This document shows, piece by piece, positions 7,696 through 63,016 of a DNA stretch of 64,000 bases. The notes beneath the pieces were generated by a model. The model made no database searches. It saw only the letters and a program-made list of their open reading frames with translations, and had not been told where the DNA came from. A program made the position numbers and the translations under genes. The DNA is taken from positions 62,001 through 126,000 of the IMG/VR virus record IMGVR_UViG_3300020595_000009; one strand, 5' to 3'. The DNA is from a virus. Position 1 is the first letter of the stretch, and the number at the start of each line of letters is the position of its first letter.

Positions 7696-7698
7696 TAG

Positions 7699-8006
7699 TG
7701 GAGATGTGGGGAGTCGAACCCCAGTCCTTAAAACTTAAAATCAATCGTCATTCACAAAATTAGTTAGTCAACCACCCGACTAACAAGCCACCTCATACAA
7801 TGAGGGAATCTACATTAAATAGAAACAAATTAACAAAAAAGCAACTTTGGATAAAAAGGCAGTTGCCGCCCCCTGATTATGCTGCTAACGCAACAGAGTC
7901 AAATTCAACGTTATTGTTGGCAATTATTTTTTTTCTGGTTTTCGTATGTCCAGCCAAGCTTTTGCACGATTTATTTTTTATTCCAAGTCGAAGCCAGTGC
8001 ATCCCC
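7699..8006 (-). ncRNA. ssrA: Phage tmRNA (ssrA)
   Basis: 308 nt. The 5' end GGGGATG pairs with CATCTCC at the 3' end, including a G3-U70 wobble, the alanine-tRNA identity determinant, and the discriminator is A. The 5' part has the tmRNA-like CTGGCTTCGACTTGG and the 3' part a T-arm CTGGGGTTCGACTCCCCA. In between is a tag reading frame (7877-7921) encoding ANNNVEFDSVALAA followed by TAA, a classic proteolysis tag ending ALAA. The resume codon is GCC. Encoded 3' end is ACTA rather than ACCA. It would rescue stalled ribosomes by trans-translation. Confidence 0.95.
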
Positions 8007-8333: not shown

Positions 8334-9131
8334 TTAAAGTAAGCTAGCTAGTTTGTGAAGAAGGTCCTCTGATAAGTCAAGCTGGTCTTCGACCTCGGCT
8401 TCAGGCTCAGGCTCTTCAACCTCAACAGAACCGACAGGGTCTTCTACTTCCACTTCCGGAGCAGGTGTTATTTCTGCTTCCTGGTCCTCTAAGTGAGCTT
8501 CGATGTTCGGAAGAATATAGTCTTTAAAAGCTTTCTCATCTTCAGGGTTAGATAAGGTCTCATAAGCATTGAGAATCTGTGTCTGGATCTTCTTGAGTGT
8601 TACAGCTGCTTCTCTCATCCCTGTTAACTGGTCAGGGTCGGTTGGCATATCATCGCCAGATACTAGCTTCTCTTCTTCGGTCCTAGAATCTCCTTCTTCA
8701 GGATCGATTACCGGTTCTTCTTCCTTACCAAGACCTAAGTCCATTCTATTTGGGTCACTCGGAGCGACGCCAATCTCGATGTCTTCTTCTAGCTCTAAGT
8801 TGGCGGCAGGGTCGGTCTCTGAACTCTTTGAGATGTCTGCGATACCTAAGAGGTTTTTGATACCAATCATCAAGTGGTTGGAATACGCCTGCCTTTGTTC
8901 TGACGAGGTTGTAAGATCTTTATAGTCATCCTGAATTGATGGGATAATATTTTTTAAGAGATCACGAAGTTTATTGACGCCGGTGTTTTGATAAACAACT
9001 TCATCGGACTGTTTTGCTTCTGTAAGGATCCCACGAATAGCTTTACGTAGGCGCTGCTCTTCGTTTAGTTGTTTTCTTTTATTCTCGGTGATAATCTTTC
9101 GTATTGCTTTTCGAAGTTTGAGTTCTTCCAT
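8334..9131 (-). CDS. Possible internal start giving 265-residue C-terminal product
   Basis: In frame with the 916-residue protein. ATG at 9129-9131 follows AAGAGAAG with 6-7 nt spacing, and the motif CACTATTTATA lies 42-51 nt further upstream. The product would start MEELKLRKAIRKIITENKR, much like the N-terminal tags of the late genes at 18-22 kb. This suggests separate late expression of the C-terminal part, probably as a virion or scaffold-like protein. Confidence 0.35.
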   Translation of the reverse strand: MEELKLRKAIRKIITENKRKQLNEEQRLRKAIRGILTEAKQSDEVVYQNTGVNKLRDLLKNIIPSIQDDYKDLTTSSEQRQAYSNHLMIGIKNLLGIADISKSSETDPAANLELEEDIEIGVAPSDPNRMDLGLGKEEEPVIDPEEGDSRTEEEKLVSGDDMPTDPDQLTGMREAAVTLKKIQTQILNAYETLSNPEDEKAFKDYILPNIEAHLEDQEAEITPAPEVEVEDPVGSVEVEEPEPEAEVEDQLDLSEDLLHKLASLL

Positions 9132-11084
9132 TAAATCTTCTCTTTTTATGAAATAGTTTTCTTGCATCTCTCTATAAATAGTGCGCTTTTTAGGTTCATC
9201 GTCTACAGGGGCAGCAAACCCACCAACTGCTCCTCCCCCCATCGCAGACATTTCATCCAGCGAAGATTCCGAAGAAGGGGGTTGGTCTTTTCCCAGAATA
9301 ACTAAAACCTCATCAGGGTCAACGCCCTGCGGTATGAATGGAGTTATGTCCTCTCCTTTCGAAAAGGCCTCTCTAAAGTCTGTAGCACTCAATTCCGGAG
9401 GTTGTGGAGTGAATGCGTGTTCCATTGGATCCAAGACCTTTACTCCCTCTGCAGCATAGTTTTGTACACTTTTTGCAAAACGACTTTGGTCGCCGCCTTT
9501 TGTGCTAGTACCTAATAGGACTTTCTCACCGGGCTTTGCTACTTCTTCTACATGTTTGTAGGCTGCGGTTACTGGTGATGCTGATGGGGATTCTTCGACT
9601 CTTACGTTTCTAAGGCCAAGTGCTTTTGCGTATACGTCAAATATTTGTTTTGCCTGTTCTGACGTTACCTGAACTCCGTTTGCTTCTCTGGTCTTCGGAG
9701 AGACGTAAACGATAACCTCGTCTGCGATGCCGGCATAGTGTGCTACCATATCCATATGGCCACGGTGAGGCGGTTTGAAGCTTCCTGGTATTACTGCGAC
9801 TATCTTTTCTTGATCTTCTTGTTCTGTTAAAGCACTAAGGGCCGGTATCTTTCCTCGGCCGTATTTAAACATACCCAAGATCTGGTTGATGGGGGCAAAA
9901 TTACCGGTAAACTTATAGGTGCTTCCATTCCAGTCAAAGACAAAACCTTCGGCGGCAGTGGTAACACGATCGGCATCTTTTAATTTTTCTAGTTGAGACT
10001 TGAGAATTTCTATAGCCTCTTCGTGACCGGAGGCCTCTATAACTTTTATTGCGTTGGCTACTTCATCTTTCAGTCTTGCTACTTCTGTTGAGTTGTCAAG
10101 AATGAAAAGTGATTGGAGGCCTTCTAAAGCATCAACAGTAAAGTCGTGGACAACACTCTCTACGGGAGCAATCGCTGCTTTCAAAAACTTTGTGTCTGCT
10201 TCTTTAACCATACGACTAAAAGCTGCCCGTTGTTCGGAAGGAATAATGCTTTTAAGTTTTACTACTGAGTATGGGCCGCTACGTTGACCGGAGGCGAATC
10301 GATTTACCAGGAGAGCTTTTGCTTCGTCTGGTAGAGAGCCAAAACTGTCTTCTACCATTGGGGCTATTCTAGCAACAAGGTAATCTAATACAGTATCATT
10401 ATCTGAAACTCCAACCCTGGATATTGTTTGTTCTAAAGCAGCAAGATTCCTGTTCAGTGTCTCGTCACTTAGTTTGTCTAGCTTTCGAATCGGGTTAACC
10501 ATAAACCCAAACTCTTCCTTGGCGACGGCCTCTTGCATCTTTACAAGGGCATGCCGAAGAGTGTTAAAGCTCTCAGAGACATCAACATCCTCAACTTGGC
10601 CCGACTCTTTATTAAAATAGGCATGACCAACGTGGTGGATGGTTAGGTTCTTGGTGTCATAGTTAATGACGTTTGCGTTTCTAGGATCTTGTATCTCGGC
10701 GTTATAATAGATGTTTGCATCTGGTCCGAAGATCTTTTCCTGTGTCTCTGCTGGAAGTGACTGAACTGCTTTCTCGAAAACAGAAAAAGCATCGTTGAAC
10801 GCTTGCTCAACAGAACCTCGCCCAGCAAACTTCGCAGCAAGGCCGGCGGCGTCTAAACCGCCTTTCTTGATGTTCCCCTTGTTCCTGGCTGCTTTGGCCT
10901 TACCATCCTTTACAGAATAAGAAATGTAAAGGTTCTGACCATCAGTCTTCTCTGTTCCCTCAAGTTCGCCCTGGGAGGCTGCGATGAATATTTCTTTCAT
11001 CTGCTTAAAAGTTAACGCCGGGTTATCATAAAGGTGAGACATATGACCGGCGACGCCTCCTTCGTTAACGAACATTGAAGTCAT
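8334..11084 (-). CDS. Ligase-like / cytidylyltransferase-like fusion protein
   Basis: 916 residues. Near residue 46, EKTDGQNLYISY is a K-x-D-G motif like the nucleotidyl-lysine motif of RNA/DNA ligases and capping enzymes. Around residue 440, AVIPGSFKPPHRGHMDMV is a HxGH nucleotidyltransferase (NadM/CTP-transferase-like), followed by a Rossmann domain with VIVYVSPKTRE. The C-terminal 265 residues hold two copies of an amphipathic motif (LRKAIRKIITE and LRKAIRGILTE) and a Pro/Glu-rich tail. Similar fusions occur in marine T4-like phages, with no activity known to me. A late-type promoter motif and an alternative start lie inside. Confidence 0.75.
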   Translation of the reverse strand: MTSMFVNEGGVAGHMSHLYDNPALTFKQMKEIFIAASQGELEGTEKTDGQNLYISYSVKDGKAKAARNKGNIKKGGLDAAGLAAKFAGRGSVEQAFNDAFSVFEKAVQSLPAETQEKIFGPDANIYYNAEIQDPRNANVINYDTKNLTIHHVGHAYFNKESGQVEDVDVSESFNTLRHALVKMQEAVAKEEFGFMVNPIRKLDKLSDETLNRNLAALEQTISRVGVSDNDTVLDYLVARIAPMVEDSFGSLPDEAKALLVNRFASGQRSGPYSVVKLKSIIPSEQRAAFSRMVKEADTKFLKAAIAPVESVVHDFTVDALEGLQSLFILDNSTEVARLKDEVANAIKVIEASGHEEAIEILKSQLEKLKDADRVTTAAEGFVFDWNGSTYKFTGNFAPINQILGMFKYGRGKIPALSALTEQEDQEKIVAVIPGSFKPPHRGHMDMVAHYAGIADEVIVYVSPKTREANGVQVTSEQAKQIFDVYAKALGLRNVRVEESPSASPVTAAYKHVEEVAKPGEKVLLGTSTKGGDQSRFAKSVQNYAAEGVKVLDPMEHAFTPQPPELSATDFREAFSKGEDITPFIPQGVDPDEVLVILGKDQPPSSESSLDEMSAMGGGAVGGFAAPVDDEPKKRTIYREMQENYFIKREDLMEELKLRKAIRKIITENKRKQLNEEQRLRKAIRGILTEAKQSDEVVYQNTGVNKLRDLLKNIIPSIQDDYKDLTTSSEQRQAYSNHLMIGIKNLLGIADISKSSETDPAANLELEEDIEIGVAPSDPNRMDLGLGKEEEPVIDPEEGDSRTEEEKLVSGDDMPTDPDQLTGMREAAVTLKKIQTQILNAYETLSNPEDEKAFKDYILPNIEAHLEDQEAEITPAPEVEVEDPVGSVEVEEPEPEAEVEDQLDLSEDLLHKLASLL
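9173..9182 (-). promoter_or_regulatory. Late-type promoter motif inside coding region
   Basis: ACTATTTATA on the minus strand, identical in core to motifs in front of the tagged genes at 18.3-22.4 kb, here about 42 nt upstream of an internal ATG with a ribosome site. Confidence 0.4.
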
Positions 11085-14262: not shown

Positions 14263-14302
14263 AATCCTCCTGTGAGTTGGTCCGGAAAGCCCGGTGTATA
14301 TA

Positions 14303-14332
14303 TTAGACGAACGAGCGACGGATCTTATCCAC
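14303..14332 (-). promoter_or_regulatory. Bipartite ECF-type promoter element, copy 1
   Basis: Minus strand GGATAAGATCC, 10 nt, CGTCTAA, ending 41 nt before uvsE. This copy lacks the full DnaA-box match (it has AGTGGATAA) and continues CGTCTAATATA instead of CGTCTAACTAAT. Confidence 0.6.
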
Positions 14333-17088: not shown

Positions 17089-17103
17089 AATTTAGATAAA
17101 AGA

Positions 17104-17128
17104 AAAGGGCGGGAAGAACCCGCCCTTT
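17104..17128. terminator. Rho-independent terminator
   Basis: Stem AAAGGGCGGG/CCCGCCCTTT, 5-nt loop, directly after the sigma-like gene; the minus strand continues TTTTCTTTT. Confidence 0.85.
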
Positions 17129-17153
17129 CATTATAACATAACTTTAAAGTTGT

Positions 17154-18305
17154 TTATAGACCCAAAGTCTCTTTTACGACTGCAGCAATTGTTTCTTCTA
17201 AAGAAAGTTCTTCATTTTTGCGATATCTTTCATCTGGTCGTCGAGGAAACATAGATCCTCGACGTCTTGCTGTTGGGGGAGTCGGATTCGTCGATGAACC
17301 AGCCATTGATCCTGCCTTTGGAAGTGATTCATAGTCCAAGTCGATTCCGGGCTCCATAAGGTCGGCATCAGGATCTTCTGACTTAGCTAAAACTTTTCGG
17401 TAAACAGCTAAAAGCTCATCGTCAAGCTCACCGTCCTCGACCATTGAGCCATAATTATCATAAGCCCATTTATAAAAGTCTTCAAAGAACTGCTTTTCAT
17501 CTGCTCTGATAGCTTCGGCATCATCAAACATACGATCGGCTGTTTCGCCTTCTCGGATATCGCCGGGCTTCACACCACCAGCAAATGCGATTCGAAGAGT
17601 TTTCTTGACGCCTTCATCACCTGGAGAGTACAACCATCGATCAATTCTTTCACGTGACCGAGAAATTTCACGACCAACTTCTCCGACAGTGTTGTAACCA
17701 AGCTCGACACGCAGTTCCTCGACTGACTTTGGATCGGCCGCAAACTGATTTAGGGTAACAATTTTTTGCCGATCGTTGAGGTTGATTTTGTCATCCTTGA
17801 TTGCTTGGACCATAGCATCGAAAGCTTCATTGCGCTCTTTGTCAAGAAGAATCTGCTCGGGGTTCTTAATTTTTGGAACCAACGGATAGATTTCGCTCTT
17901 GTCGGACATACTTGTGATATCCGGCTCGCCTTCAGCTGCGCCGCCACCGGCAAAAGGAAGCTCTTTGCGTCCTGCTCGGAAACTGTCAATTAATTCATTT
18001 TTCATAATGGCGCCGGCCCAAGTGGAGAATGCAGAATCTCCTCGGAACCCACCAATTTGAGTCATGATTTTGATAAGGGCGCTTTGCATTGCGTCCTCGG
18101 CGTCAGCTTCGTTTCCGCCGGCTAACTTAAGCGCAAGAAAACGATGCTTTTTTGAAAGTCTGGTTAAAAGCTCTTCCATCGCCGGACTATTTGGGTTTTC
18201 CTTGGCTTTGGCAGCAAGTGCTTCCATGCTCTCCGCTTTATCTTCATCAATGCGTGCAATCTCCTCTTGGATGATTTGCAGCAGCCTAGTTTTCTTGATT
18301 TTCAC
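17154..18305 (-). CDS. ECF-like sigma factor with N-terminal packaging-type tag
   Basis: 383 residues. Residues 1-22 (MKIKKTRLLQIIQEEIARID) resemble the N-terminal tag of the next genes. Around residues 50-115, LKLAGGNEADAEDAMQSALI, GGFRGDSAFSTWAGAIMKNE and LIDSFRAGRKE form sigma region 2 of ECF type. Around 175-215, LNDRQKIVTLNQF and VEELRVELGYNTVGEVGREI look like region 4 with its helix-turn-helix. The last 160 residues are an acidic extension ending SLEETIAAVVKETLGL, again tag-like. It would bind host core RNA polymerase. A late-type promoter precedes it and a terminator follows, so it is a single late gene. Inference: packaged in the capsid and injected. Confidence 0.8.
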   Translation of the reverse strand: MKIKKTRLLQIIQEEIARIDEDKAESMEALAAKAKENPNSPAMEELLTRLSKKHRFLALKLAGGNEADAEDAMQSALIKIMTQIGGFRGDSAFSTWAGAIMKNELIDSFRAGRKELPFAGGGAAEGEPDITSMSDKSEIYPLVPKIKNPEQILLDKERNEAFDAMVQAIKDDKINLNDRQKIVTLNQFAADPKSVEELRVELGYNTVGEVGREISRSRERIDRWLYSPGDEGVKKTLRIAFAGGVKPGDIREGETADRMFDDAEAIRADEKQFFEDFYKWAYDNYGSMVEDGELDDELLAVYRKVLAKSEDPDADLMEPGIDLDYESLPKAGSMAGSSTNPTPPTARRRGSMFPRRPDERYRKNEELSLEETIAAVVKETLGL

Positions 18306-18335: not shown

Positions 18336-18346
18336 TTATAAATAGT
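18336..18346 (-). promoter_or_regulatory. Late-type promoter motif of sigma gene
   Basis: ACTATTTATAA on the minus strand, about 31 nt before the sigma ATG; a TTGACT lies 4 nt before it, too close to act as a -35 box. Confidence 0.5.
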
Positions 18347-18353
18347 TAGTCAA

Positions 18354-18386
18354 AACAAAAAAAGCCCCGCCGAAAAAGCGGGGCTT
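18354..18386 (-). terminator. Rho-independent terminator
   Basis: Minus strand AAGCCCCGC, TTTTTCG loop, GCGGGGCTT and a T7 tract; ends the 86-residue tagged protein gene. Confidence 0.9.
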
Positions 18387-18408: not shown

Positions 18409-18669
18409 TTAGAAGTCTATGCCGTCATCGTTTGCCGGGAGGGCTTCGGAAGTTTCCGCATTTCTTAGCGCATCAACTTCTTTATTTGCGTGAGCGGATG
18501 CCTCATCGACATCAGCACCGGCAGCTTCGGCTTCTTCGAAAGCGCTTTTCCAAAATTCCCACTCTGCATCAGTAAGATCTTCAAGGGGCATTGGGCTCTT
18601 TGACTCATCAAGAGCAGCCTCAAGCTCTTCTTTGATGATCTTGACAAGTTTTTGTTTTGTGATTTTCAT
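18409..18669 (-). CDS. Tagged small acidic protein
   Basis: 86 residues. N-terminal tag MKITKQKLVKIIKEELEAAL, then an acidic helical body (EWEFWKSAFEEAEAAGADVDEAS). The tag matches those at 20330, 21457 and 21936. Probable late virion-internal or scaffold protein; function unknown. Confidence 0.7.
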   Translation of the reverse strand: MKITKQKLVKIIKEELEAALDESKSPMPLEDLTDAEWEFWKSAFEEAEAAGADVDEASAHANKEVDALRNAETSEALPANDDGIDF

Positions 18670-20329: not shown

Positions 20330-20836
20330 CTAGGAGTTAGGTACCCCGATCGATTTTCCCTTCTTATAACCTTTAATAGCGCCTATGATCGCAGGGATTA
20401 CCACAGCTGCGGTACCCATGATTGCTAAAGTCCCGGCCGGCCCAAACGTCATGAGCCCACGATCGGTAAGCATCCGGATCATATCAGCTATTTGCGGGCT
20501 AGAGAGGCTAGCTATGGCGGTTGCAACGGTGGCCGCCACCGCCGTACCGGTACCTGTCATGGCCCCGATACCCCCTCCTAAGATCGCACCTGCCTTGCCG
20601 AGTCGTTCAGGATCGGTCTCCAGGGCGTCGTGCCAGGCGTACGATCGAGGTGAGTTTTCATTAAGCGATATCGCCTCTGCAATTGCTTTAACGTCTTTTT
20701 GCAGTTCTGGTCTTTCTGCGATCTCTTTATTTAATGCTTTTAAAATCATTGCGGCGCCTTGTTTCTCGTCTTCTTCGAGTGTCCCCTCAAGCTCCTCTTT
20801 GATGACTTTAACGAGGTACTGTTTTGTGATTTTCAT
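20330..20836 (-). CDS. Tagged protein with glycine/alanine membrane segments
   Basis: 168 residues. Tag MKITKQYLVKVIKEELEGTL, an acidic linker, then two hydrophobic segments (AILGGGIGAMTGTGTAVAAT and TLAIMGTAAVVIPAIIGAI) and a basic end (KGYKKGKSIG). It might insert in membranes on delivery. Late-type promoter 31 nt upstream. Confidence 0.7.
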   Translation of the reverse strand: MKITKQYLVKVIKEELEGTLEEDEKQGAAMILKALNKEIAERPELQKDVKAIAEAISLNENSPRSYAWHDALETDPERLGKAGAILGGGIGAMTGTGTAVAATVATAIASLSSPQIADMIRMLTDRGLMTFGPAGTLAIMGTAAVVIPAIIGAIKGYKKGKSIGVPNS

Positions 20837-20905: not shown

Positions 20906-21460
20906 TTAAGAGGTTTGTTCGTCGGAAAGAAAAGCCTCAACGGGCCGGAACATTACCACAACAGCAAAACTTGGTGTTTCATAGTACATTCCATCGGCCA
21001 TACCAGGATTTTTTATCCATTTTCCTTGGTTTTCGGTGCCCCAAGCGCCTTGTTGCCATCCGGAAACCTTTTTTAGCACCTGATCCATGTCAAGAATGTT
21101 ATAGTTTTCTTTTCGGACTGCCGCTTTCACCCCCTCCGGGTCATCGGCAAGGTTATAAATGTCGGCCGTGGGAACGTTTGCTGTATAAAGCGCCTTGTTA
21201 GCAAAAAAACTTTCTTTCTCTGCTGGATTCACATAGAAAAACGTGCGAGGAACCGCCGAAATCGCCAAATCTTTTTTTGAATAACCCATTTTTCCGAATA
21301 ATTTTGGGTCAAGCAATATCTTTTCCTTTGCGTTCTCGGGTGATTCTTGAGTAAAGTGGTATAATTGCGTTGTGCCCCCTTCGGAAGGAATGCGTTCCTC
21401 TGAAGCTTCGACCAAAACCGTTTCAACTAAGGTTCTAAGATACTGTTTTGTGAGCTTCAT
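20906..21460 (-). CDS. Tagged protein, possibly ADP-ribosyltransferase-like
   Basis: 184 residues. Tag MKLTKQYLRTLVETVLVEAS, then TTQLYHFTQES, RTFFYVNPAEKES and IYNLADDPEG. An LYHxT opening followed by a RTFFYVN strand is reminiscent of ADP-ribosyltransferase folds, but I cannot identify a full catalytic triad. T4 injects a related activity (Alt), so the idea deserves a structural search. ATG overlaps the upstream stop by 4 nt. Confidence 0.55.
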   Translation of the reverse strand: MKLTKQYLRTLVETVLVEASEERIPSEGGTTQLYHFTQESPENAKEKILLDPKLFGKMGYSKKDLAISAVPRTFFYVNPAEKESFFANKALYTANVPTADIYNLADDPEGVKAAVRKENYNILDMDQVLKKVSGWQQGAWGTENQGKWIKNPGMADGMYYETPSFAVVVMFRPVEAFLSDEQTS

Positions 21461-21852
21461 TGACTTTTTTTCTTTTGCATCCTTCTCTGGCTTACATCAA
21501 GCCACTTTCTTCCAGTTTTAGACTTGAAAAAAGATTGTAATTTTCCTAATGGTCCGGATCCGTGAGAGCGATATCCCTGCAATCTAGGAAGATACCTATC
21601 GTACAACTCGCCGTCAAGGTTGCCAAAGTAGTTTTCGTGCTCTAGGAAGCCGATCTTGTTTCCTTGTTGATCTAGAATATCGTAGGTTGTATCTTTATAG
21701 CCGGCCATTTCATCATGAGGATCATCTGGATCTTCTGGACGGACGGTCTCGCCGGTTTTAACAACCTGAACTCCTCGGGCTAGTGGGTGTTTATACGTCT
21801 TCTCTATCTCTTCTTTAATGATTTGTGTTAGGTATTCTTTTGTGAGCTTCAT
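21457..21852 (-). CDS. Tagged hypothetical protein
   Basis: 131 residues. Tag MKLTKEYLTQIIKEEIEKTY, then an unrecognised beta-rich domain (TYDILDQQGNKIGFLEHENY) and a strongly basic C-terminus (RKWLDVSQRRMQKKKSQ) that could bind nucleic acid. Confidence 0.7.
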   Translation of the reverse strand: MKLTKEYLTQIIKEEIEKTYKHPLARGVQVVKTGETVRPEDPDDPHDEMAGYKDTTYDILDQQGNKIGFLEHENYFGNLDGELYDRYLPRLQGYRSHGSGPLGKLQSFFKSKTGRKWLDVSQRRMQKKKSQ

Positions 21853-21935: not shown

Positions 21936-22388
21936 CTAGAGATATCTAACGTTATTCATTATTCCGGCCGTTGAAAAGTATACCCTAAAGTTCTTTGTAT
22001 CTATGTCTCTTAAAAGAAAATTTTTGCCAAGCATGTAAAATGTTGCTTTCACGTCCGGATTTTTTCCGACGATTCCTTTTTCTATTTTATCTGATCTTTC
22101 TTTGAGGTAATTGTATACAGCTCTAGTGTCGTTCTCTGAACCCAATTTTAGAAAAGCTTTTGGAGCTTTGGTGGCGCCGGTACCGCCTGAGTACACCTGA
22201 GTGCCCCGACCCCGAAACGATTTCGGCGTTTTGATTAAGTCAGGCTCCTCTAGATCGACGCCGGTTTCGGGGTCCTTGATATCCTTGACAAGATTATCGA
22301 TCTTATCGCTTAAGGACTGGCCTTCCTGCATGATCGCTTCCAATTCTTCTTTAATGATATGTGTTAGATGCTGTTTTGTGATTTTCAT
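21936..22388 (-). CDS. Tagged hypothetical protein
   Basis: 150 residues. Tag MKITKQHLTHIIKEELEAIM, then an unrecognised domain ending FRVYFSTAGIMNNVRYL. Late-type promoter upstream. Function unknown. Confidence 0.7.
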   Translation of the reverse strand: MKITKQHLTHIIKEELEAIMQEGQSLSDKIDNLVKDIKDPETGVDLEEPDLIKTPKSFRGRGTQVYSGGTGATKAPKAFLKLGSENDTRAVYNYLKERSDKIEKGIVGKNPDVKATFYMLGKNFLLRDIDTKNFRVYFSTAGIMNNVRYL

Positions 22389-23004: not shown

Positions 23005-23040
23005 ATTAGTTAGACGTACGGGCGACGGATCTTATCCACA
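23005..23040 (-). promoter_or_regulatory. Bipartite ECF-type promoter element, copy 2
   Basis: GGATAAGATCC, 10 nt, CGTCTAACTAAT on the minus strand, 20 nt before the gene at 22770-22985. It overlaps the last codons of the upstream gene. Contains the DnaA-box sequence TGTGGATAA. Confidence 0.75.
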
Positions 23041-23376: not shown

Positions 23377-23412
23377 ATTAGTTAGACGAATAAGACGAGG
23401 ATCTTATCCACA
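23377..23412 (-). promoter_or_regulatory. Bipartite ECF-type promoter element, copy 3
   Basis: Same boxes and 10-nt spacer as the other copies, 23 nt before the 21-residue peptide. Includes TGTGGATAA. Confidence 0.75.
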
Positions 23413-23640: not shown

Positions 23641-23676
23641 ATTAGTTAGACGAATAAGACGAGGATCTTATCCACA
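23641..23676 (-). promoter_or_regulatory. Bipartite ECF-type promoter element, copy 4
   Basis: Identical conserved boxes and spacer; 23 nt before the 63-residue gene. Confidence 0.75.
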
Positions 23677-24082: not shown

Positions 24083-24118
24083 ATTAGTTAGACGAACAAC
24101 GGGCGGATCTTATCCACA
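24083..24118 (-). promoter_or_regulatory. Bipartite ECF-type promoter element, copy 5
   Basis: GGATAAGATCC, 10 nt, CGTCTAACTAAT, 22 nt before the 50-residue coiled-coil gene. Confidence 0.75.
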
Positions 24119-24209: not shown

Positions 24210-24245
24210 TGTGGATAAGATCCGGCCTTCGATCGTCTAACTAAT
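24210..24245 (+). promoter_or_regulatory. Bipartite ECF-type promoter element, copy 6 (plus strand)
   Basis: TGTGGATAAGATCC, 10 nt, CGTCTAACTAAT reading rightwards, first of two tandem copies upstream of the only plus-strand gene in the array. Its orientation shows the element follows its gene. Confidence 0.75.
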
Positions 24246-24312: not shown

Positions 24313-24348
24313 TGTGGATAAGATCCGGCGCTCAATCGTCTAACTAAT
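24313..24348 (+). promoter_or_regulatory. Bipartite ECF-type promoter element, copy 7 (plus strand)
   Basis: Second tandem copy, 46 nt before the winged-helix gene. Spacer sequence differs from copy 6 but length is the same. Confidence 0.75.
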
Positions 24349-24393: not shown

Positions 24394-24840
24394 ATGGCTA
24401 ATCAGAACTTCAAGGCAATCGCAATGGCTCAACTCGGATACACGCTGCGAGACATTCGCATCGAATCCCGCCGTGAGGAGATTTACGATCTCACCGCTTC
24501 GCTTGCTGCCGAGGCTCGCCGCACTCGTGAGACGGACACCGTTCGTCAATCGACTGTCGCAAGCGTCCTCATGGGCTTTGTCGGCTTCTCAACCGACCCG
24601 GATCAATACGGTCCAACGTGTGCGGACGTTCATAACGTCCTGCTCGAAGGTGGTGCGAACATCAAGCGCAATGCGGTTGCACAGCACCTCGCCAAGCTCA
24701 AGGCTGGCGGCTTCATTGACTCGGCTCGCAAGATGGAATGCGAACCGGGCAAGCGAGGAGCGCCTCCGGTGTTCTTCTTCCTGACCTCAAGCGAGGATGC
24801 ATTCGCTTCGGTCCTCTCCGGCGAGACGGTCGCCAAGTAA
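24394..24840 (+). CDS. Winged-helix DNA-binding protein
   Basis: 148 residues. Residues 70-135 (CADVHNVLLEGGANIKRNAVAQHLAKLKAGGFIDSAR.. then KRGAPPVFFFLT) form helix-turn-helix plus a beta wing, like ArsR/MarR-type repressors. Noticeably more GC-rich than the neighbours, possibly a recent acquisition. Two tandem bipartite promoters and a strong terminator make it an independent unit; a regulator of host or phage transcription is likely. Confidence 0.7.
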   Translation: MANQNFKAIAMAQLGYTLRDIRIESRREEIYDLTASLAAEARRTRETDTVRQSTVASVLMGFVGFSTDPDQYGPTCADVHNVLLEGGANIKRNAVAQHLAKLKAGGFIDSARKMECEPGKRGAPPVFFFLTSSEDAFASVLSGETVAK

Positions 24841-27983: not shown

Positions 27984-28019
27984 ATTAGTTAGACGATCGG
28001 GGGAGGGATCTTATCCACA
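27984..28019 (-). promoter_or_regulatory. Bipartite ECF-type promoter element, copy 8
   Basis: GGATAAGATCC, 10 nt, CGTCTAACTAAT, 70 nt upstream of tRNA-Lys and the genes beyond it. Confidence 0.7.
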
Positions 28020-28130: not shown

Positions 28131-28166
28131 TATGGATAAGATCCCTTCTTTATTCGTCTAACTATT
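28131..28166 (+). promoter_or_regulatory. Bipartite ECF-type promoter element, copy 9 (plus strand)
   Basis: Plus-strand GGATAAGATCC, 10 nt, CGTCTAACTATT. It lacks the DnaA-box G (TTATGGATAA), so the sigma-like boxes, not the DnaA box, are what is conserved. No protein gene follows. Confidence 0.65.
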
Positions 28167-35734: not shown

Positions 35735-35770
35735 ATTAGTTAGACGATCGAGCGGAGGATCTTATCCACA
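35735..35770 (-). promoter_or_regulatory. Bipartite ECF-type promoter element, copy 10
   Basis: GGATAAGATCC, 10 nt, CGTCTAACTAAT, 71 nt before the MoxR gene. Confidence 0.75.
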
Positions 35771-37984: not shown

Positions 37985-38020
37985 AATAGTTAGACGATCG
38001 AGCGGAGGATCTTATCCACA
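37985..38020 (-). promoter_or_regulatory. Bipartite ECF-type promoter element, copy 11
   Basis: GGATAAGATCC, 10 nt, CGTCTAACTATT, 43 nt before the 226-residue gene. On its right it adjoins a segment shared with copy 13. Confidence 0.75.
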
Positions 38021-42493: not shown

Positions 42494-42529
42494 ATCAGTT
42501 AGACGATCGAGCGAGGGATCTTATCCACA
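42494..42529 (-). promoter_or_regulatory. Bipartite ECF-type promoter element, copy 12
   Basis: GGATAAGATCC, 10 nt, CGTCTAACTGAT, 54 nt before the zinc-knuckle gene. Confidence 0.75.
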
Positions 42530-43736: not shown

Positions 43737-44222
43737 TTATTCAGGCCATTTGAGTGCCGGGTAAACATTCTCCCAAGATCCATCTTCACACAAAACGTGT
43801 CTAAAGGGTAAGCAGTCATCCTCTACATACTGGCTCTCAATGAATGTTTCTTTTGGCTTACAAACTAAGGCAAGGAATTCTTGAAGTTGATCAACGGCTT
43901 CATAACATTCCTCTCCACAATAATCTTCCATTGTGATAGAATTATGTGCGTATACATTCAAATTACCAAAGAAGCATTCCAAAAATGTGGTAAAGCAATT
44001 TGAATAAACAGCATCAACAAACTCTGAATGAAGGTCTTTTTGAGTGGAGTCCTGCCAACCCCAACGAGGATACTTTGTTTCATTCCTCGCTTCAAACAAG
44101 AAGTGCTCTCGTTCGTCAGCCGGCAGATCATACTCTTTCCAAAGTTCATCTGTTAATTTTCCAATGATCTTTTGATGATCTTCTTTGAGTTCAAATTCTA
44201 CGTGCCAGTTCCATAACGACAT
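43737..44222 (-). CDS. Hypothetical protein
   Basis: 161 residues from MSLWNWHVEFELKEDHQKII after AAAGGAAAAA. Trp- and Cys-containing, no recognised domain. 90 nt downstream of a bipartite promoter and probably first of its operon. Confidence 0.6.
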   Translation of the reverse strand: MSLWNWHVEFELKEDHQKIIGKLTDELWKEYDLPADEREHFLFEARNETKYPRWGWQDSTQKDLHSEFVDAVYSNCFTTFLECFFGNLNVYAHNSITMEDYCGEECYEAVDQLQEFLALVCKPKETFIESQYVEDDCLPFRHVLCEDGSWENVYPALKWPE

Positions 44223-44311
44223 TTTTTTCCTTTGTTGTTGAAGGAGGGTTTGTTTCAAGAGAGGGGGCCGAAAACCCCTCGGTGCGCAGCTTGGTGGGCT
44301 TTTGGGCGCTC

Positions 44312-44347
44312 ATTAGTTAGACGATCGAGGCGAGGATCTTATCCACA
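44312..44347 (-). promoter_or_regulatory. Bipartite ECF-type promoter element, copy 13
   Basis: GGATAAGATCC, 10 nt, CGTCTAACTAAT, 90 nt before the 161-residue gene. Confidence 0.75.
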
Positions 44348-44390
44348 TAAAATCGAAAAAAGTGACGCACCGGAGCGATTTGTTTCATTT

Positions 44391-44822
44391 TTACTCAAAC
44401 TCCAAACTGTTTGTTTCACGGTTGTAAAAACAGTAGATGTTCTTTGCGAGCCATAGATCCACAATGGTTTCCGGATCGACTTCTCCGTGGTTTAGCCACC
44501 ACGCTTTGGTTCCGTTGGAATACTCAACAGCCGGGCCATCTTCACGGTGAAGATTGCCGTTTAGATACCAATGTTTGTCTCCGTTGGCATACTCACAAGC
44601 CGGGCCATCTTCACGGTGAAGCTTGCCGTTTAGGAACCATTCTTTTTCTCCGTCGAGCCACTCAAAAGCCGGACCATCTTCACGGTGACGCTTTCCGTTT
44701 AGGAACCATTCTTTGGATCCGTCGGCACACTCTAGAGCCGGGCCATCTTCACGGTGGCGCTTTCCGTTTAGCCGCCATTCTTTGGTTCCGTTGGCATAAA
44801 TTTTACATTCAGGTTTATTCAT
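44391..44822 (-). CDS. HREDGPA repeat protein, family B (4 units)
   Basis: 143 residues; last gene of the third run (44391-45984). Its end and the 60 nt beyond are the same as at 38064. Confidence 0.75.
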   Translation of the reverse strand: MNKPECKIYANGTKEWRLNGKRHREDGPALECADGSKEWFLNGKRHREDGPAFEWLDGEKEWFLNGKLHREDGPACEYANGDKHWYLNGNLHREDGPAVEYSNGTKAWWLNHGEVDPETIVDLWLAKNIYCFYNRETNSLEFE

Positions 44823-46212: not shown

Positions 46213-46248
46213 GCTAGTTAGACGATCGAGGCGAGGATCTTATCCACA
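46213..46248 (-). promoter_or_regulatory. Bipartite ECF-type promoter element, copy 14
   Basis: GGATAAGATCC, 10 nt, CGTCTAACTAGC, 35 nt before the 65-residue gene. A terminator lies directly upstream. Confidence 0.75.
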
Positions 46249-48363: not shown

Positions 48364-48399
48364 ATAAGTTAGACGATCGAGGCGAGGATCTTATCCACA
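48364..48399 (-). promoter_or_regulatory. Bipartite ECF-type promoter element, copy 15
   Basis: GGATAAGATCC, 10 nt, CGTCTAACTTAT, 75 nt before the 275-residue gene. A weak hairpin AACGC/GCGTT plus T-run lies directly upstream. Confidence 0.75.
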
Positions 48400-54864: not shown

Positions 54865-56451
54865 TTAGCCCTCTACAATAGCATAGTCTGTAGTAATTAG
54901 TGTGCCGGCAACAGAAACTGCGTTCAAGACAGCATTTTTTGTAACCTTGACCGGATCGAGGATGCCTGTTTCATAAGCATCAACAACTCCTTCCTTTGTA
55001 AAGTCCCAAGAACGGCCTTCCTGATGGAGCTGCCTACTGATCAAATCAAAGGACTCTCCAGCATTATCACACATAATCTGTAAAGGAGCTTTTGTTGCTT
55101 CTCTCATAATAGCCACTGCGGTTCTTTGATCCGGATGATCCATCTCCCAGTCATCGTAACCAAGTGATTCACGACTACCCAGACGGCGACCAATACGATA
55201 AAGGGTAGAACCCCCACCAGCAATGATTCCTTCAGCCTGCGCTGCGCTGACTGCTTCTAGGGCATCTTCAATGCGGTGCTTTTTCTCGGTCATTTCTACT
55301 TCTGTTGAAGCACCAACACGAATAATAGCAACGCCAGAAGCAAGGCGAGTAATTCTTTCCTGGATTCTTTCACAAAGAACCATGTCATCGCATAGCGCAA
55401 TTTCGTTTTTAAGGGTGTCAATACGTTCCTGTACATCTTCTAGATCTCCTTTTCCGCCGACAACGACAGTTTGAGCACGACCAATGCTAATAGACTTACA
55501 GAGGCCCAGATCTTTCAAAGCTAGATCTTTCACGAGCACTCCAGCATCAACAGAAGCCAAGGTTGCGCCTGTTGATGCGGCTAAGTCCTTAAGAATGTTC
55601 TTTCTTTCTTCTCCGTATCTTGGTGCTTTTACGGCAACCACTTTCATTGTGCCTCGCTGCGAGTTCATAATAAGCGCAGCAAGAGCCTGTCCGTCAATCT
55701 GATCGGCAACAATAACTAGTGGCCTTCCTTCTCTAGCGACCAACTCAAGCACTGGAAAGATTTGTTCGACTGTATCGATCTTCTCATCAGCAACCAAAAT
55801 CAGGGCATTCTCATAGTTGCAAGTCCCTGCTCTTTCGTTTGTAATGAATGCTGGAGAAACAAACCCAGAGTCAAAACGGAAGCCTTCTAGGATGTCGACA
55901 GTTGTATCAACTGAACGAGCTTCTTCAATTTGGACTGATCCATCGTTTCCAGCCTTATCAATTGCAGTTGCAACAATGTCGCCAATCACACTATCGTTAT
56001 TAGCAGAGATGGTTGCGATGTGCCTTACGTCTTCCAAGCTCTCAACAGGTCGCTTGTTTTCTTCTAACTCATCAACAATCGCTGCGGCCACTTTGTCTAG
56101 ACCACGTTTGATCTCAATGGGCGCTGTTCCAGCAAGAACGTGTCGGCGTGCTTGCTGATAGATTGCGTTTGCTAGAACTGTTGTTGTTGTAGTTCCATCA
56201 CCAGCATTCTGCGCAGTTTTACGAGCAGCCTGTTTTACAATCTGTGCTGCCGAGTTTTGGAATGGATCTTCAAACTCAATAAACTCTGAAATGGTTACAC
56301 CATCTTTCGTAATGATGGGTGGCGCATCCTTCTTGTGAAGAATAACATTTCGTCCTCTCGGACCTAAAGTTGTTTGGACGTTCTCAGCTAAAGTCTGAAC
56401 TGCTTCTGAGATACTATTAGATAGATTTTGTTTGCTTTGATAGTTCTTCAT
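54865..56451 (-). CDS. groEL: Phage-encoded GroEL chaperonin
   Basis: 528 residues. TTLGPRGRNVILHKK, the ATP site TKDGVTI and GDGTTTTTVLA, VKAPRYGEERKNIL in the apical domain and IAGGGSTLYRIGRRL are chaperonin blocks. It lacks the GGM tail of bacterial GroEL. No groES or gp31-like gene is in the window, so it may use a co-chaperonin encoded elsewhere. It would fold phage capsid proteins. Part of the clpP-groEL operon. Confidence 0.95.
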   Translation of the reverse strand: MKNYQSKQNLSNSISEAVQTLAENVQTTLGPRGRNVILHKKDAPPIITKDGVTISEFIEFEDPFQNSAAQIVKQAARKTAQNAGDGTTTTTVLANAIYQQARRHVLAGTAPIEIKRGLDKVAAAIVDELEENKRPVESLEDVRHIATISANNDSVIGDIVATAIDKAGNDGSVQIEEARSVDTTVDILEGFRFDSGFVSPAFITNERAGTCNYENALILVADEKIDTVEQIFPVLELVAREGRPLVIVADQIDGQALAALIMNSQRGTMKVVAVKAPRYGEERKNILKDLAASTGATLASVDAGVLVKDLALKDLGLCKSISIGRAQTVVVGGKGDLEDVQERIDTLKNEIALCDDMVLCERIQERITRLASGVAIIRVGASTEVEMTEKKHRIEDALEAVSAAQAEGIIAGGGSTLYRIGRRLGSRESLGYDDWEMDHPDQRTAVAIMREATKAPLQIMCDNAGESFDLISRQLHQEGRSWDFTKEGVVDAYETGILDPVKVTKNAVLNAVSVAGTLITTDYAIVEG

Positions 56452-56459
56452 AATACTCC

Positions 56460-57128
56460 TTAGATTACTTCGTCAGCGATCCCATACTCAACAGCTTGTT
56501 CTGCTGAGATGTAATGATTTGAGTTTGACGAAAACATTTTCTTGATCTTCTTGATGGATAAGTTTGAGTTCTCGGCAACGCAGCGAACATACATATCCTG
56601 CAGGACCTTTACTTCTTCCAGTTCGTTCTCCATGTTGTGCACAGAGCCCATTGTCCCTGCGGACGCTTGGTGAAGCATAAGACGACAGTTTCGGGCAACA
56701 AGACGCTTACCCTTTGTCCCAGCAGCTAGAATAGCTACGCCGGCAGACATTACTTTGCCTAGGCCAATAGTCTCAATGTCGACACCACTAGACTTTGTCA
56801 TGTTCATAAGGTCAATAATACCAAACATCTCTAAGACCTCTCCGCCATAAGTTGAGATGATCATACGAATGTCTTGTTCGGGTTGCAACAACCCTTCGTG
56901 TTCTGCTAACTCCTCCTCGGTAAACAACTCTGGGGTGTTCTGCCAAAGATAATAAATGCCTGATGTAACATCTGCGCACTTCTCTTCGTTGATTGCTCCA
57001 AAAACGGCTACGGTTCGGAGGTCCTTCTCGGCTGGTTGTGCTGGCAGCGAGAAATGGATTGCGCCAGGGGATTCTTCTTCTACTGTCTCTTCATGCTCTT
57101 CGTTTAGATTGTTCTTCTTCTTCTTCAT
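56460..57128 (-). CDS. clpP: ClpP-family protease
   Basis: 222 residues with an acidic leader. DIRMIISTYGGEVLEMFGII, then IGLGKVMSAGVAILAAGTKG (catalytic Ser), RLMLHQASAG (His) and HYISAEQAVEYGIADEV. The Asp of the triad is not obvious. Phage ClpP-like enzymes can serve as prohead proteases; here it lies with chaperone genes. Confidence 0.85.
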   Translation of the reverse strand: MKKKKNNLNEEHEETVEEESPGAIHFSLPAQPAEKDLRTVAVFGAINEEKCADVTSGIYYLWQNTPELFTEEELAEHEGLLQPEQDIRMIISTYGGEVLEMFGIIDLMNMTKSSGVDIETIGLGKVMSAGVAILAAGTKGKRLVARNCRLMLHQASAGTMGSVHNMENELEEVKVLQDMYVRCVAENSNLSIKKIKKMFSSNSNHYISAEQAVEYGIADEVI

Positions 57129-57155
57129 TTTACCTCGTTTTGTGAAGAATAAATT

Positions 57156-57530
57156 TTATTTGTTTACCTCGCTAAAGGCATCCTTGATCTTATCACAGAT
57201 CTCATTAGTTTTCAAGACTTTTGAGAACTCTTTTGGAATAACGGCAACAACACGGACAAACGTAACAGATTGCCAGTCATTGAGAGTTTTTTCCATTCTT
57301 TTTTTCATGACTTCTTTTTCTTTTTCCGGAATGTCTAGATCTTCCATTTGCTTAATTAGCCTTTCTTTAACTGTTACTACATCTTTTCCAAACGATCTAA
57401 TCATAGTCAAGCAAGAAGCAAGGCAGTATGTTAGAAAGTTATAGGAATGTGTATAGTTTAAGAGTGATGCTAGAAAGCGATAAGAGAATACTCCTAGAAA
57501 AAACACGCCAATGATAGTCCACGTATCCAT
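57156..57530 (-). CDS. Membrane-anchored helical protein
   Basis: 124 residues. N-terminal TWTIIGVFFLGVFSYRFLAS, then a second hydrophobic patch and a long charged helix (LIKQMEDLDIPEKEKEVMKK). Function unknown. Confidence 0.6.
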   Translation of the reverse strand: MDTWTIIGVFFLGVFSYRFLASLLNYTHSYNFLTYCLASCLTMIRSFGKDVVTVKERLIKQMEDLDIPEKEKEVMKKRMEKTLNDWQSVTFVRVVAVIPKEFSKVLKTNEICDKIKDAFSEVNK

Positions 57531-57547
57531 TTTTTCCTCTAATAAAA

Positions 57548-57572
57548 AAAGACCGCATAATCTGCGGTCTTT
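57548..57572 (-). terminator. Rho-independent terminator
   Basis: AAAGACCGCA/TGCGGTCTTT, 5-nt loop, then TTTTATTAG on the minus strand; ends the 189-residue acidic gene. Confidence 0.9.
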
Positions 57573-57606
57573 TAAAGTTAAACACTTATTTTTCTAAGTC
57601 AAGGTC

Positions 57607-58176
57607 TTAGCCAAGTTTTGCTGCGATCTTCGCTGCTAGAACTTCGGCAAGTTTGTCCTGCTTTGACTCTTTGACTAGTCGCTCCGCAACTCTGCGGGTG
57701 ACTTTCTTTACGATGTCCTGAGTATCGACAACCTCAACGGTTTCGTTTAGCTCTTCGTACATGTCTTCTTCCATATGGTCACCACATGATGTCTCTTCCA
57801 TTGGGTGAGCCATTTCTTCCACTGGCTCGGCCATTTCGTCCATCTCATCGGCTGCGTCAACAGCGATGTCTGTTTCCGGAGCGGCTTTGATGGCGTCAAT
57901 GAGTTGCTCAAGAGCGGCTTTGATTGCGTCCTCGCCGTCGTCGGCAGGTGCGTCCATTTCCATCTCCTCTTCACCCATTTCCATTTCCATGTCGCCTTCA
58001 GGAGCGTCCATTTCCACTTCTTCCTCTTCCTCGACTTCTTCAGCTTCGGTGAGTTCGGTTGCTTCTTCCATTGGCTCTTCTTCTTCTGAGAGGAAGTTTT
58101 CGGTAAGAGGCCCAATAGCCGCAAGCTTCATGAACTTACGAATGTGTCCCTCTGAAAGTAGTGTCTTCTTAGCCAT
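57607..58176 (-). CDS. Acidic virion-associated protein with tag-like leader
   Basis: 189 residues. Leader MAKKTLLSEGHIRKFMKLAA and PLTENFLSE, which I recall from marine T4-like phages, then a Glu/Met-rich stretch and a helical C-terminus (VKKVTRRVAERLVKESKQDK). Resembles a prohead-core or internal protein. Two late-type motifs upstream. Confidence 0.65.
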   Translation of the reverse strand: MAKKTLLSEGHIRKFMKLAAIGPLTENFLSEEEEPMEEATELTEAEEVEEEEEVEMDAPEGDMEMEMGEEEMEMDAPADDGEDAIKAALEQLIDAIKAAPETDIAVDAADEMDEMAEPVEEMAHPMEETSCGDHMEEDMYEELNETVEVVDTQDIVKKVTRRVAERLVKESKQDKLAEVLAAKIAAKLG

Positions 58177-58260
58177 TTGTTATAACTCCTTTGTTATATT
58201 AAAAATAAGTGTTTGTAGTAAATAGTATGATAAAAATAAAAAAACTTTTTATTCCACCAG

Positions 58261-58271
58261 TTATAAATAGT
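58261..58271 (-). promoter_or_regulatory. Late-type promoter motif
   Basis: CTATTTATAAC on the minus strand, with a second CTATTTAC at 58218-58226, both upstream of the acidic protein gene. Confidence 0.45.
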
Positions 58272-58287
58272 ATGTTATTTATAAAAA

Positions 58288-58641
58288 CTACAAGTCAGGC
58301 ATTTCTATTTCAATAATGTCAAAAATAGATCCTAACTCTTCTTCTGAAAGAGAGAAACTTTGTCTCACTTTCTTTGTTTTTTCTTTTTCCTTGCGGATCT
58401 TTTTTTCACGGGTTTTGGAAAGGTTTCCGTTGTCTTTCTTGTATTCTTCAATCAGCTTCTCTAAGAGTGATGTTTGATTTACGAACTGGAGAATAACCCA
58501 ACGAAGAAACTTTCCTTGGCCAATGCCTTCATACTTTAGTCTAATACGAAAATCAGCGTGGAGCTTTTCGCCAATAGAGAAAGTTAAGTTTTTATACTTT
58601 GGCTCATACTCTACTATGTTTGGCTTTTGATCTTCGCTCAT
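58288..58641 (-). CDS. Possible ribbon-helix-helix protein
   Basis: 117 residues. NLTFSIGEKLHADFRIRLKYEGIGQGKFLRWVIL fits an Arc/MetJ-like strand-helix-helix, then a Lys-rich linker. ATG overlaps the upstream stop by 4 nt. Confidence 0.55.
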   Translation of the reverse strand: MSEDQKPNIVEYEPKYKNLTFSIGEKLHADFRIRLKYEGIGQGKFLRWVILQFVNQTSLLEKLIEEYKKDNGNLSKTREKKIRKEKEKTKKVRQSFSLSEEELGSIFDIIEIEMPDL

Positions 58642-59660
58642 CGATGTAAGATGTGGGTGCTGGACTCAACTGCTGCGTTGTGGGACTGGCGAATGAATGT
58701 TGCTTTGCTTTGTAGCTCAACAATGTCTCTCGCTCCGGAATAGGAAAAGCCTGACCTCACACCAGTAAGTAGTTCTTCTACAACATTGTATACAGAGCCT
58801 TTACAAGGAATAGTGGTAGATACGCCTTCTAAGGACGAAGTTTTTCCACGCCAAGCTTTTTGTGCTTCGGCAGATGCCATACCACGATAAGCTTTAAAGC
58901 AGCGACCATCACGATTGCGGAAAGTTTCACTGGGCGTTTCATCAGTTCCGGCCAATAACGAACCCAACATTACAGCATCAGCGCCAGCAGCCAAAGCTTT
59001 TACAATGTCACCAGAGTTTTTGATACCGCCGTCAGCAATAAGAATGGCGCTGCGATCTGTTTGAGCACAGTCAATAATAGACTGAAGGGTTGGAACGCCG
59101 TGGCCTGTTTGGATACGGGTTGAGCAAATACTTCCTCCACCAATGCCTACACGAATAGAGTCAGCACCCCAATCGGCCAATCGGTTGAAGCCTTCAAGCG
59201 TCGCAACATTGCCGGCCATAATGTGAACGTTCATTCCAAGCTCTCTTCGCAAGGAATCAATAGCCTCGCTTACAAGAGAATGATCGCCGTGAGCAACATC
59301 AATACAAATAACTTTTGCTCCTGACGCATAACATTCAATGGCTCGCTCAATAAAGTCTCCACTCACACCAACTGCTGCTCCAACAACAGAACAGTTTGGT
59401 ACATCCAAGGCGTCTTCTACCTCGGCTGCTTGTTCAGCGATTGTATTGTATCTATGAACAACAGCCATTCCTCCAAGCTTAGACATTGCTGCAGCCATTT
59501 CCCATTCACTTACTGTGTCCATCGGAGAAGCAATAATGGGAATCTCTAGATTTAGTTCATAATCCAAAGGCGTTGCTAGTGAAATTTGTTTCCTTGATAT
59601 AATGTCGGAGTATTGTGGTTCCAACAAAACATCCCCAAATGTGATTGTTTGTTTATACAT
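58638..59660 (-). CDS. IMP dehydrogenase/GMP reductase family enzyme
   Basis: 340 residues, without CBS domains. [17 protein letters not shown], GANVGxx-like [12 protein letters not shown], the Cys loop [18 protein letters not shown] and [20 protein letters not shown]. Length and absence of CBS are like GMP reductase; the SICSTR..GHGVPT loop also occurs in GuaB-like enzymes, so the reaction (IMP to XMP or GMP to IMP) is open. It lies with dUTPase and an adenylosuccinate synthetase homologue. Confidence 0.85.
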
Positions 59661-59862
59661 TTTTTTCCTCTTGATCGATCATTCTTTCTAGATACCATTT
59701 GGCTTTCTTGAGATCTTCTGGGCCGCCTTTCATTGAGTATCGTGAAACATACTTGATCACGTTTCCTTGATTGAAATCCATTTTCCAGCTTTCAATGTAA
59801 TCAATTGTTTCAATGCCTTTATTGTAGTGGTCGGGGTGATCTACTGCTTCTTTTGATTTCAT
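59653..59862 (-). CDS. DUF3310 protein
   Basis: 69 residues from MKSKEAVDHPDHYNKGIETI. DHPDHYxxG..IDYIES..GNVIKYVSRYSMKGGPEDLKKAKWYL is the complete DUF3310 signature, common in phages; some are annotated as nucleotide kinases without proof. Confidence 0.85.
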   Translation of the reverse strand: MKSKEAVDHPDHYNKGIETIDYIESWKMDFNQGNVIKYVSRYSMKGGPEDLKKAKWYLERMIDQEEKNV

Positions 59863-60356
59863 GCTCTTTCCATCATTGAGACAACCGGGCCACAAAGATT
59901 TTGCTGTCCATTGTGACCGCCTCTGAAAACAACGACTGCTGACGGGAATGGTGCTGGATCGTTTGCTTCACCACCACCAAACTTTAGACGACCTTTCACA
60001 AAGCGGATTTCATTGGCTTGCATAACATATTCTGCCCAATACTTTGTGTCTGGGCGTGCCGGGATAAGCATAACTACAGTAGTTCCTGAGTCCTTGCTTT
60101 CTTCATAGGCCTTACGAATCCATTCTTTTAGCACTCGGCCATAAGGCGGATTAACATAACAAGTCTCGCCCTTCCACGATTGGACTAAGGCATCTTCTGC
60201 TTCTGTGAAATAGTTTGTACATAAAGCATTTGAGCCATTTGTTGCCGGGTCTAGTGTAAAGCTAAACTCCTTGTTCAATTTGCTATAAAATTCTTTTGGT
60301 GTTTGCCAGTCCATCTTTTTTGATGACATCATTGTGTTCATTGTTTGCTTATTCAT
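59859..60356 (-). CDS. Phage N6-adenine DNA methyltransferase
   Basis: 165 residues from the ATG at 60354-60356, after AAGGAG. DWQTPKEFYSKLNKEFSFTLDPA is the pfam05869-type start; YVNPPYGRVLKEW is motif IV (NPPY). No specificity domain. May protect phage DNA, perhaps at GATC, which is abundant next to the promoter elements. Confidence 0.88.
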   Translation of the reverse strand: MNKQTMNTMMSSKKMDWQTPKEFYSKLNKEFSFTLDPATNGSNALCTNYFTEAEDALVQSWKGETCYVNPPYGRVLKEWIRKAYEESKDSGTTVVMLIPARPDTKYWAEYVMQANEIRFVKGRLKFGGGEANDPAPFPSAVVVFRGGHNGQQNLCGPVVSMMERA

Positions 60357-60603
60357 TGATCTCCTTTTGATTGTTTTGAGAAGTTTGTGTTGCTTGGGCG
60401 CATACCCAAGCAACATCGCTGCCGGCCGGAATGATTTGTCCTTCCTGTTCTAAACATTCGATCCGGGCTTGCGCATCCTTGCCTGATGCGACCAAACCCA
60501 AGCCAAATAGTGCTAGAAGGAAAAGCCCCGTGAAAGCGTAAAGTATGAGCCTTGTTTCCTTGCGGCGCTGTTGGATAAGTAACTGTGCGTGATAATCATT
60601 CAT
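60349..60603 (-). CDS. Single-pass membrane protein
   Basis: 84 residues from MNDYHAQLLIQQRRKETRLI; membrane helix YAFTGLFLLALFGLGLVAS, short Cys-containing domain outside. Overlaps genes on both sides by 8 nt. Confidence 0.6.
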   Translation of the reverse strand: MNDYHAQLLIQQRRKETRLILYAFTGLFLLALFGLGLVASGKDAQARIECLEQEGQIIPAGSDVAWVCAQATQTSQNNQKEINE

Positions 60604-61051: not shown

Positions 61052-61054
61052 TTT

Positions 61055-61450: not shown

Positions 61451-61451
61451 T

Positions 61452-62492: not shown

Positions 62493-62538
62493 TCTCACTC
62501 CTTTTATTTCTTTTACGTTTTGGTAAGTATTTTTCATG

Positions 62539-63003: not shown

Positions 63004-63016
63004 TTTCTTTTCTCCT

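Follow-up and report, generated by a model that had tools for sequence, protein, structure and literature searches.

A tagged ECF sigma factor as a probable virion-borne transcription switch in a T4-like phage

A T4-like phage for which metagenomes are so far the sole source probably ships a transcription switch in its virion, since, to judge from its genome, one of its sigma factors has a tag of the head-packaging type and genes of early type carry a matching promoter. The window analysed, 64,000 nucleotides in length, comprises bases 62001-126000 of the 168,882-base virus record IMGVR_UViG_3300020595_000009; positions refer to the window unless the record is named. The sigma gene would be transcribed late, as suggested by a promoter type like that of the tagged genes and head genes, and the tag would carry the protein into the prohead core. 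A gp21-type protease is predicted from the site match to cut after I-Q-E14 or I-D-E21. At the next infection, the sigma factor would be ejected with the DNA, bind the host core RNA polymerase and switch on the TGGATAAGATCC-N10-CGTCTAA promoters of non-structural genes, to which promoter architecture, DxxR residues and co-occurrence point. Host sigma-70 would work in parallel, probably on a second set of early promoters.

We hold it to be rather probable that a tagged, late-made sigma factor is packaged, is ejected and reads these bipartite promoters alongside host sigma-70, and we lean towards a free sigma factor that is packaged in the head, injected, and puts the host RNA polymerase at once on dedicated early promoters. 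Packaging and injection had been proposed in an earlier sequence-only reading, and this interpretation appears to be partly supported. Further support comes from the constant position of a T4-type protease site in the tag, from the ECF architecture of the elements, with a -10 CGTC of the kind read by DxxR sigmas, and from the finding of the elements only in the lineage with the sigma factor.

The sigma factor and its transcription unit

The features of the sigma gene and its surroundings are the following.

17154..18305, minus strand: tagged ECF-type sigma factor, 383 aa (profile matches, PDB alignments)
18243..18305, minus strand: N-terminal tag (residues 1-21), containing the candidate protease sites I-Q-E14 and I-D-E21 (tag comparison; identical in the homologue of record G010)
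17961..18182, minus strand: sigma region 2, about residues 42-115 (Pfam and NCBIfam)
17976..17987, minus strand: DxxR motif D107-S-F-R110, region 2.4 (sequence; placed via the AlgU/RpoE alignment)
17628..17861, minus strand: candidate region 4, about residues 149-226 (full-length alignments to AlgU/RpoE and TIGR02937)
17550..17558, minus strand: candidate protease site I-R-E252, just past the sigma core ([I/L]xE site scan)
17376..17537, minus strand: hypervariable linker (residues 257-310), not alignable to the homologue of record G010 (homologue alignment)
18336..18347, minus strand: late-type promoter motif AACTATTTATAA, 42 nt before the sigma start (motif search)
18362..18386, minus strand: terminator-like hairpin preceding the sigma gene (hairpin search)
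17103..17129, minus strand: terminator-like hairpin following the sigma gene (hairpin search)

On profile evidence, the ORF 17154-18305 (-), which has a GTG start and the SD sequence TAAGGAG, encodes an ECF sigma factor. It matched NCBIfam TIGR02937 (sigma70-ECF) with 51.4 bits over residues 42-225 (cut-off 42.9), and residues 50-226 were aligned with AlgU/RpoE by phmmer against PDB (E about 1e-6), so that the earlier designation as ECF-like is confirmed. In the same reading, regions 2 and 4 had both been called visible. Region 2 is secure, with 41.8 bits to Pfam Sigma70_r2 (PF04542, cut-off 24). Region 4 is weaker: by itself it gave no match in a Pfam search, and its visibility thus rests on the full-length alignments, which counts against the packaged-sigma explanation. 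An AlphaFold model of the sigma factor, made from two homologues, had a pLDDT of 40 and is too poor to judge region 4.

The homologue in record G010 has an identical tag, a nearly identical core and a conserved C-terminus. A search for further homologues, aimed beyond the lineage and covering viral contigs, cellular genomes and phage records, yielded only two close homologues, both viral; one weak partial match was identified in cellular genomes and one in phage records, and the phage records gave no close sequence match to the tagged sigma factor. In family searches, phrog_1740 was the sole family matched by the tagged ORF, with no match to the gp55 family. A gp55-like late sigma is encoded by a separate ORF (record 43944-44648; weak gp55 match, E 5e-4) and lacks the tag, which favours the packaged-sigma explanation.

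The record contains a head and packaging gene set of T4 type, with a gp23-like capsid protein, a gp21-type prohead protease (phrog_207, E 1.2e-52), a portal and a large terminase. By terminase and capsid protein, the nearest named phages are Flavobacterium phage immuto and Microcystis phage Mel-JY01, with ~36-44% identity. A ribosomal protein S21 homologue lies within the head gene block outside the window (record 165862-166188; TIGR00030 over cut-off). The window also contains a phage-encoded tmRNA (7698-8006, minus strand) and, elsewhere, four tRNA genes. The stretch 54865-63116 (-) codes for GroEL and dUTPase, both over cut-off, and for ClpP-like, IMP dehydrogenase/GMP reductase-like and PurA/PurZ-like proteins, all below cut-offs.

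The earlier description of the sigma gene as a lone gene on a late-type promoter and terminator unit was borne out, with AACTATTTATAA located 42 nt upstream, hairpins on both sides and no other gene between them; this arrangement argues for the packaged-sigma explanation. The core ACTATTTATAA is common to the motif of the sigma gene, the tagged genes and the scaffold gene, and is located 39-42 nt before their starts. For ACTATTTATA, 13 copies were counted on the coding strand and 0 on the other strand, with 0.65 expected. From the genes served, we infer that the AACTATTTATAA-type motif is a late promoter. A strong sigma-70-like promoter was looked for ahead of the sigma gene and none is present.

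Another explanation would be that the sigma factor reads the bipartite promoters in the very infection that makes it, serving middle or continuing genes, with the tag used otherwise or with packaging being incidental; the tag might also bind the head core and so end sigma activity. This is unlikely, but has to be taken seriously. It has a precedent in gp36 of phiEco32, a phage ECF sigma which serves middle and late genes of the infection producing it (PMC3594737). However, the sole promoter-like element found at the sigma gene described here is of late type.

The N-terminal tag and the prohead protease

The sigma tag, MKIKKTRLLQIIQEEIARI, resembles the MKITKQKLVKIIKEEL-type starts of other proteins in the record. 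The resemblance of the first 20 residues to the tags of neighbouring genes had been noted before, and was found to extend to 21 residues and to seven other proteins, one of them looser. The tag family, with the consensus MKITKxxLxxIIKEEL, thus consists of eight proteins of the record including the sigma factor. Besides the sigma gene, the members in the window are the following.

18409..18669, minus strand: tagged gene, 86 aa (tag match)
20330..20836, minus strand: tagged gene, 168 aa, late-type motif upstream (tag and motif match)
20906..21460, minus strand: gene with looser tag MKLTKQYLRTLVETVLVEA, 184 aa (tag comparison)
21457..21852, minus strand: tagged gene, 131 aa, late-type motif upstream (tag and motif match)
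21936..22388, minus strand: tagged gene, 150 aa, late-type motif upstream (tag and motif match)

Two further tagged genes are located in the head block outside the window, one adjoining the protease gene and the other the terminase gene. Their position favours packaging of the sigma factor, and the presence of the tag on genes inside the head block speaks against a sigma factor working only in the infection that produces it.

The motif [I/L]-x-E is that of the T4 prohead protease. From the phage and its relatives, 53 tags were collected, picked by residues 1-8 alone to avoid circularity. Residues 12-14 are [I/L]-x-E in 51/53 tags; residue 12 is I in 52/53, residue 14 is E in 52/53, and residue 13 is free. 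This fixed site, together with the encoded gp21-type protease and gp23-like capsid protein, argues for the packaged-sigma explanation. The proteases of T4 and giant phages cut after Glu, and capsid targeting sequences span 10-20 residues (PMC5694885); the T4 internal proteins form a diverse set, conserved solely in the targeting sequence (PMC3012670). Like a T4-type capsid targeting sequence, the tag is a short N-terminal peptide common to otherwise different proteins, and on the sigma factor it is a putative T4-style targeting sequence.

It might also be that the tag is no packaging signal and has another purpose, such as binding to a shared partner or control of stability, and nine tagged proteins of relatives, compared with Pfam and PHROGs, gave only weak or unnamed families. 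Such a role is very improbable, given that I12-x-E14, its middle residue being free, is nearly invariant across proteins that otherwise differ, and that the genome encodes a protease of the matching type. Several larger relatives have six to eight tagged proteins each in their records, and a direct scan identified a similar start on gp080 of Flavobacterium phage immuto; a tblastn search with the 22-aa tag gave no matches, the query being too short to be informative. Between the sigma tag and that of the G010 homologue there are zero synonymous changes, which makes this pair uninformative about selection on the tag and counts against the packaged-sigma explanation.

In the sigma factor, [I/L]xE occurs after residues 14, 21, 252, 318 and 371. 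Residues 22-249 are free of it, with 3.3 sites expected (P = 0.018), and this sparing of the sigma core favours packaging. Relative to shuffles, [I/L]xE sites amount to 0.88-0.94 in the bodies of tagged proteins versus 1.18 in other proteins, a modest effect.

A 916-aa protein with a cytidylyltransferase-like domain (8334-11084, minus strand) contains two internal tag-like stretches, LRKAIRKIITE and LRKAIRGILTE, both ending in [I/L]xE. It may be a polyprotein that the prohead protease processes.

The bipartite elements and their reader

In the record, 19 elements of the form TGGATAAGATCC-N10-CGTCTAA were identified at 76.3-144.4 kb, outside the main structural blocks. Those in the window are the following.

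14302..14332, minus strand: bipartite element before endonuclease gene
23009..23039, minus strand: bipartite element, start codon 23 nt downstream
23381..23411, minus strand: bipartite element
23645..23675, minus strand: bipartite element, start codon 26 nt downstream
24087..24117, minus strand: bipartite element
24211..24241, plus strand: bipartite element before plus-strand gene 24394-24840
24314..24344, plus strand: second bipartite element before the same gene
27988..28018, minus strand: bipartite element
28132..28162, plus strand: bipartite element; SD-led ORF downstream looked for, none found
35739..35769, minus strand: bipartite element before AAA ATPase gene
37989..38019, minus strand: bipartite element
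42498..42528, minus strand: bipartite element
44316..44346, minus strand: bipartite element
46217..46247, minus strand: bipartite element; a search of 320 nt gave no SD-led ORF
48368..48398, minus strand: bipartite element

The elements precede non-structural genes and follow gene orientation, and for 17/19 an SD-led ORF was identified 23-191 nt downstream on the same strand. The genes behind them include those for a gp32-like SSB, an endonuclease, an AAA ATPase and a methyltransferase, a gene set which argues against use in the producing infection alone. Across the lineage, 36 distinct copies have the invariant boxes TGGATAAG, TCC and CGTCTAA and a variable 10-nt spacer. Many paralogous genes of a 69-bp unit (LNGKxHREDGPAxE) are present at 25805-46056 and 61055-61540 (-), and bipartite elements fall between some of these paralogues.

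The element can be written as TGGATA-N16-CGTC. CGTC is a published -10 signature of ECF promoters and is contacted by a DxxR motif of region 2.4; the characterised ECF sigma Tt-RpoE1 recognises tGTTAC-N16-CGTC, and the D of its DxxR makes contact with the G (PMC3397946). Here, CGTC is invariant in the 36 distinct copies and the sigma factor has D107-S-F-R110, the combination found in CGTC-reading ECF sigmas. In its upstream box, GGATAAG, the element departs from the classical ECF -35 GGAAC, which counts against the packaged-sigma explanation.

The upstream box carries the sequence TGTGGATAA, the DnaA-box consensus, and an inverted repeat GGAT-AAG-ATCC, for example in the element at 23009-23039, so that a second protein could bind there. 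A role as DnaA box or in replication was rejected as the main reading of the element, since it has two invariant boxes at fixed spacing and follows gene orientation, including in the plus-strand pair. The possible protein site would also suit a case in which the sigma factor is packaged and the elements are read by another factor, such as a phage activator or a host alternative sigma. We consider this quite improbable: the -10 CGTCTAA fits ECF sigmas and lacks the A and T most needed by sigma-70, no copy of the element turned up when 84,980 cellular genomes were scanned for exact matches, and the elements are missing in relatives without the sigma factor.

In an exact scan of IMG/VR, the element was identified in 13 contigs, of which 11 were aligned and are all relatives or fragments of the lineage; the remaining two, under 10 kb, were left out. 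The sigma factor is present in 3/3 element-bearing records spanning the sigma locus, the window's own record included. Element-bearing contigs without the sigma factor were rejected as counter-evidence, since the aligned ones are fragments missing the sigma locus. Five larger relatives, with terminases about 58-59% identical, have tags, and gave no sigma match and no element at up to three mismatches. The largest sigma-less relative (154.6 kb) has repeated TTGACA-type promoters instead, as read by eye. Since one lineage is concerned, this co-occurrence amounts to one contrast rather than a statistic, and it weakens the case for the packaged sigma to that extent. In a sigma-less relative (L132-L133, record G014, about 11-28 kb), repeated TTGACA ... 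GGTTACATTACAAGAG promoters have an upstream GACATTTCGTGAC box.

Sigma-70-like promoters with <=1 mismatch were found 17 times on the coding strand and 2 times on the other strand, with about 2.6 expected from shuffles, and one adjoins the bipartite element that precedes the gene for the gp32-like SSB. Early transcription is thus probably shared with the host sigma. The presence of these promoters tells against the packaged-sigma explanation; such promoters could start early transcription in an infection that then makes its own sigma factor. The bipartite class may be one of two early classes.

Comparison with known systems

Known phage takeovers of transcription use host sigma-70, newly made sigmas or packaged whole polymerases. 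To our knowledge, a free sigma factor delivered by the virion would be new, and no report of one was found in the literature searched, the coverage of which was partial. If true, packaging of a sigma factor would add a cheaper means of takeover, one that comes into play ahead of all phage protein synthesis. It would also explain a class of early-type promoters which host sigma-70 is not expected to recognise. In uncultured T4-like phages, the tag is also a possible predictor of injected proteins.

Like the sigma factor described here, gp36 of phiEco32 is a phage ECF sigma which directs the host core polymerase to a class of phage promoters (PMC3594737). However, phiEco32 is a podophage, gp36 acts on middle and late genes in the same infection, and no packaging tag has been reported for it. 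The T4 internal proteins and Alt are likewise diverse proteins with a common short N-terminal peptide ending in a prohead-protease site (PMC3012670, PMC5694885). Their tag differs in sequence, and the cargoes known from T4 comprise restriction inhibitors, Alt and proteins of that kind, whereas here the cargo would be a sigma factor. The virion RNA polymerases of N4 and giant phages are an early-gene transcription apparatus delivered by the virion (PMC4496689, PMC5694885), as is predicted here. Those are whole polymerases, in contrast to a specificity factor alone which would use the host core. With Tt-RpoE1 and other CGTC-reading ECF sigmas, the -10 CGTC, a spacing of about 16 nt and the DxxR of region 2.4 are shared (PMC3397946). 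These are cellular stress regulators with anti-sigmas and have another -35 sequence. Herpesvirus VP16 is a late-made transcription factor in the virion which starts immediate-early genes with the host polymerase. There is no homology, and VP16 is a eukaryotic, tegument-borne activator; in outline, it is like the proposed packaged sigma, which, if true, would be its bacterial counterpart.
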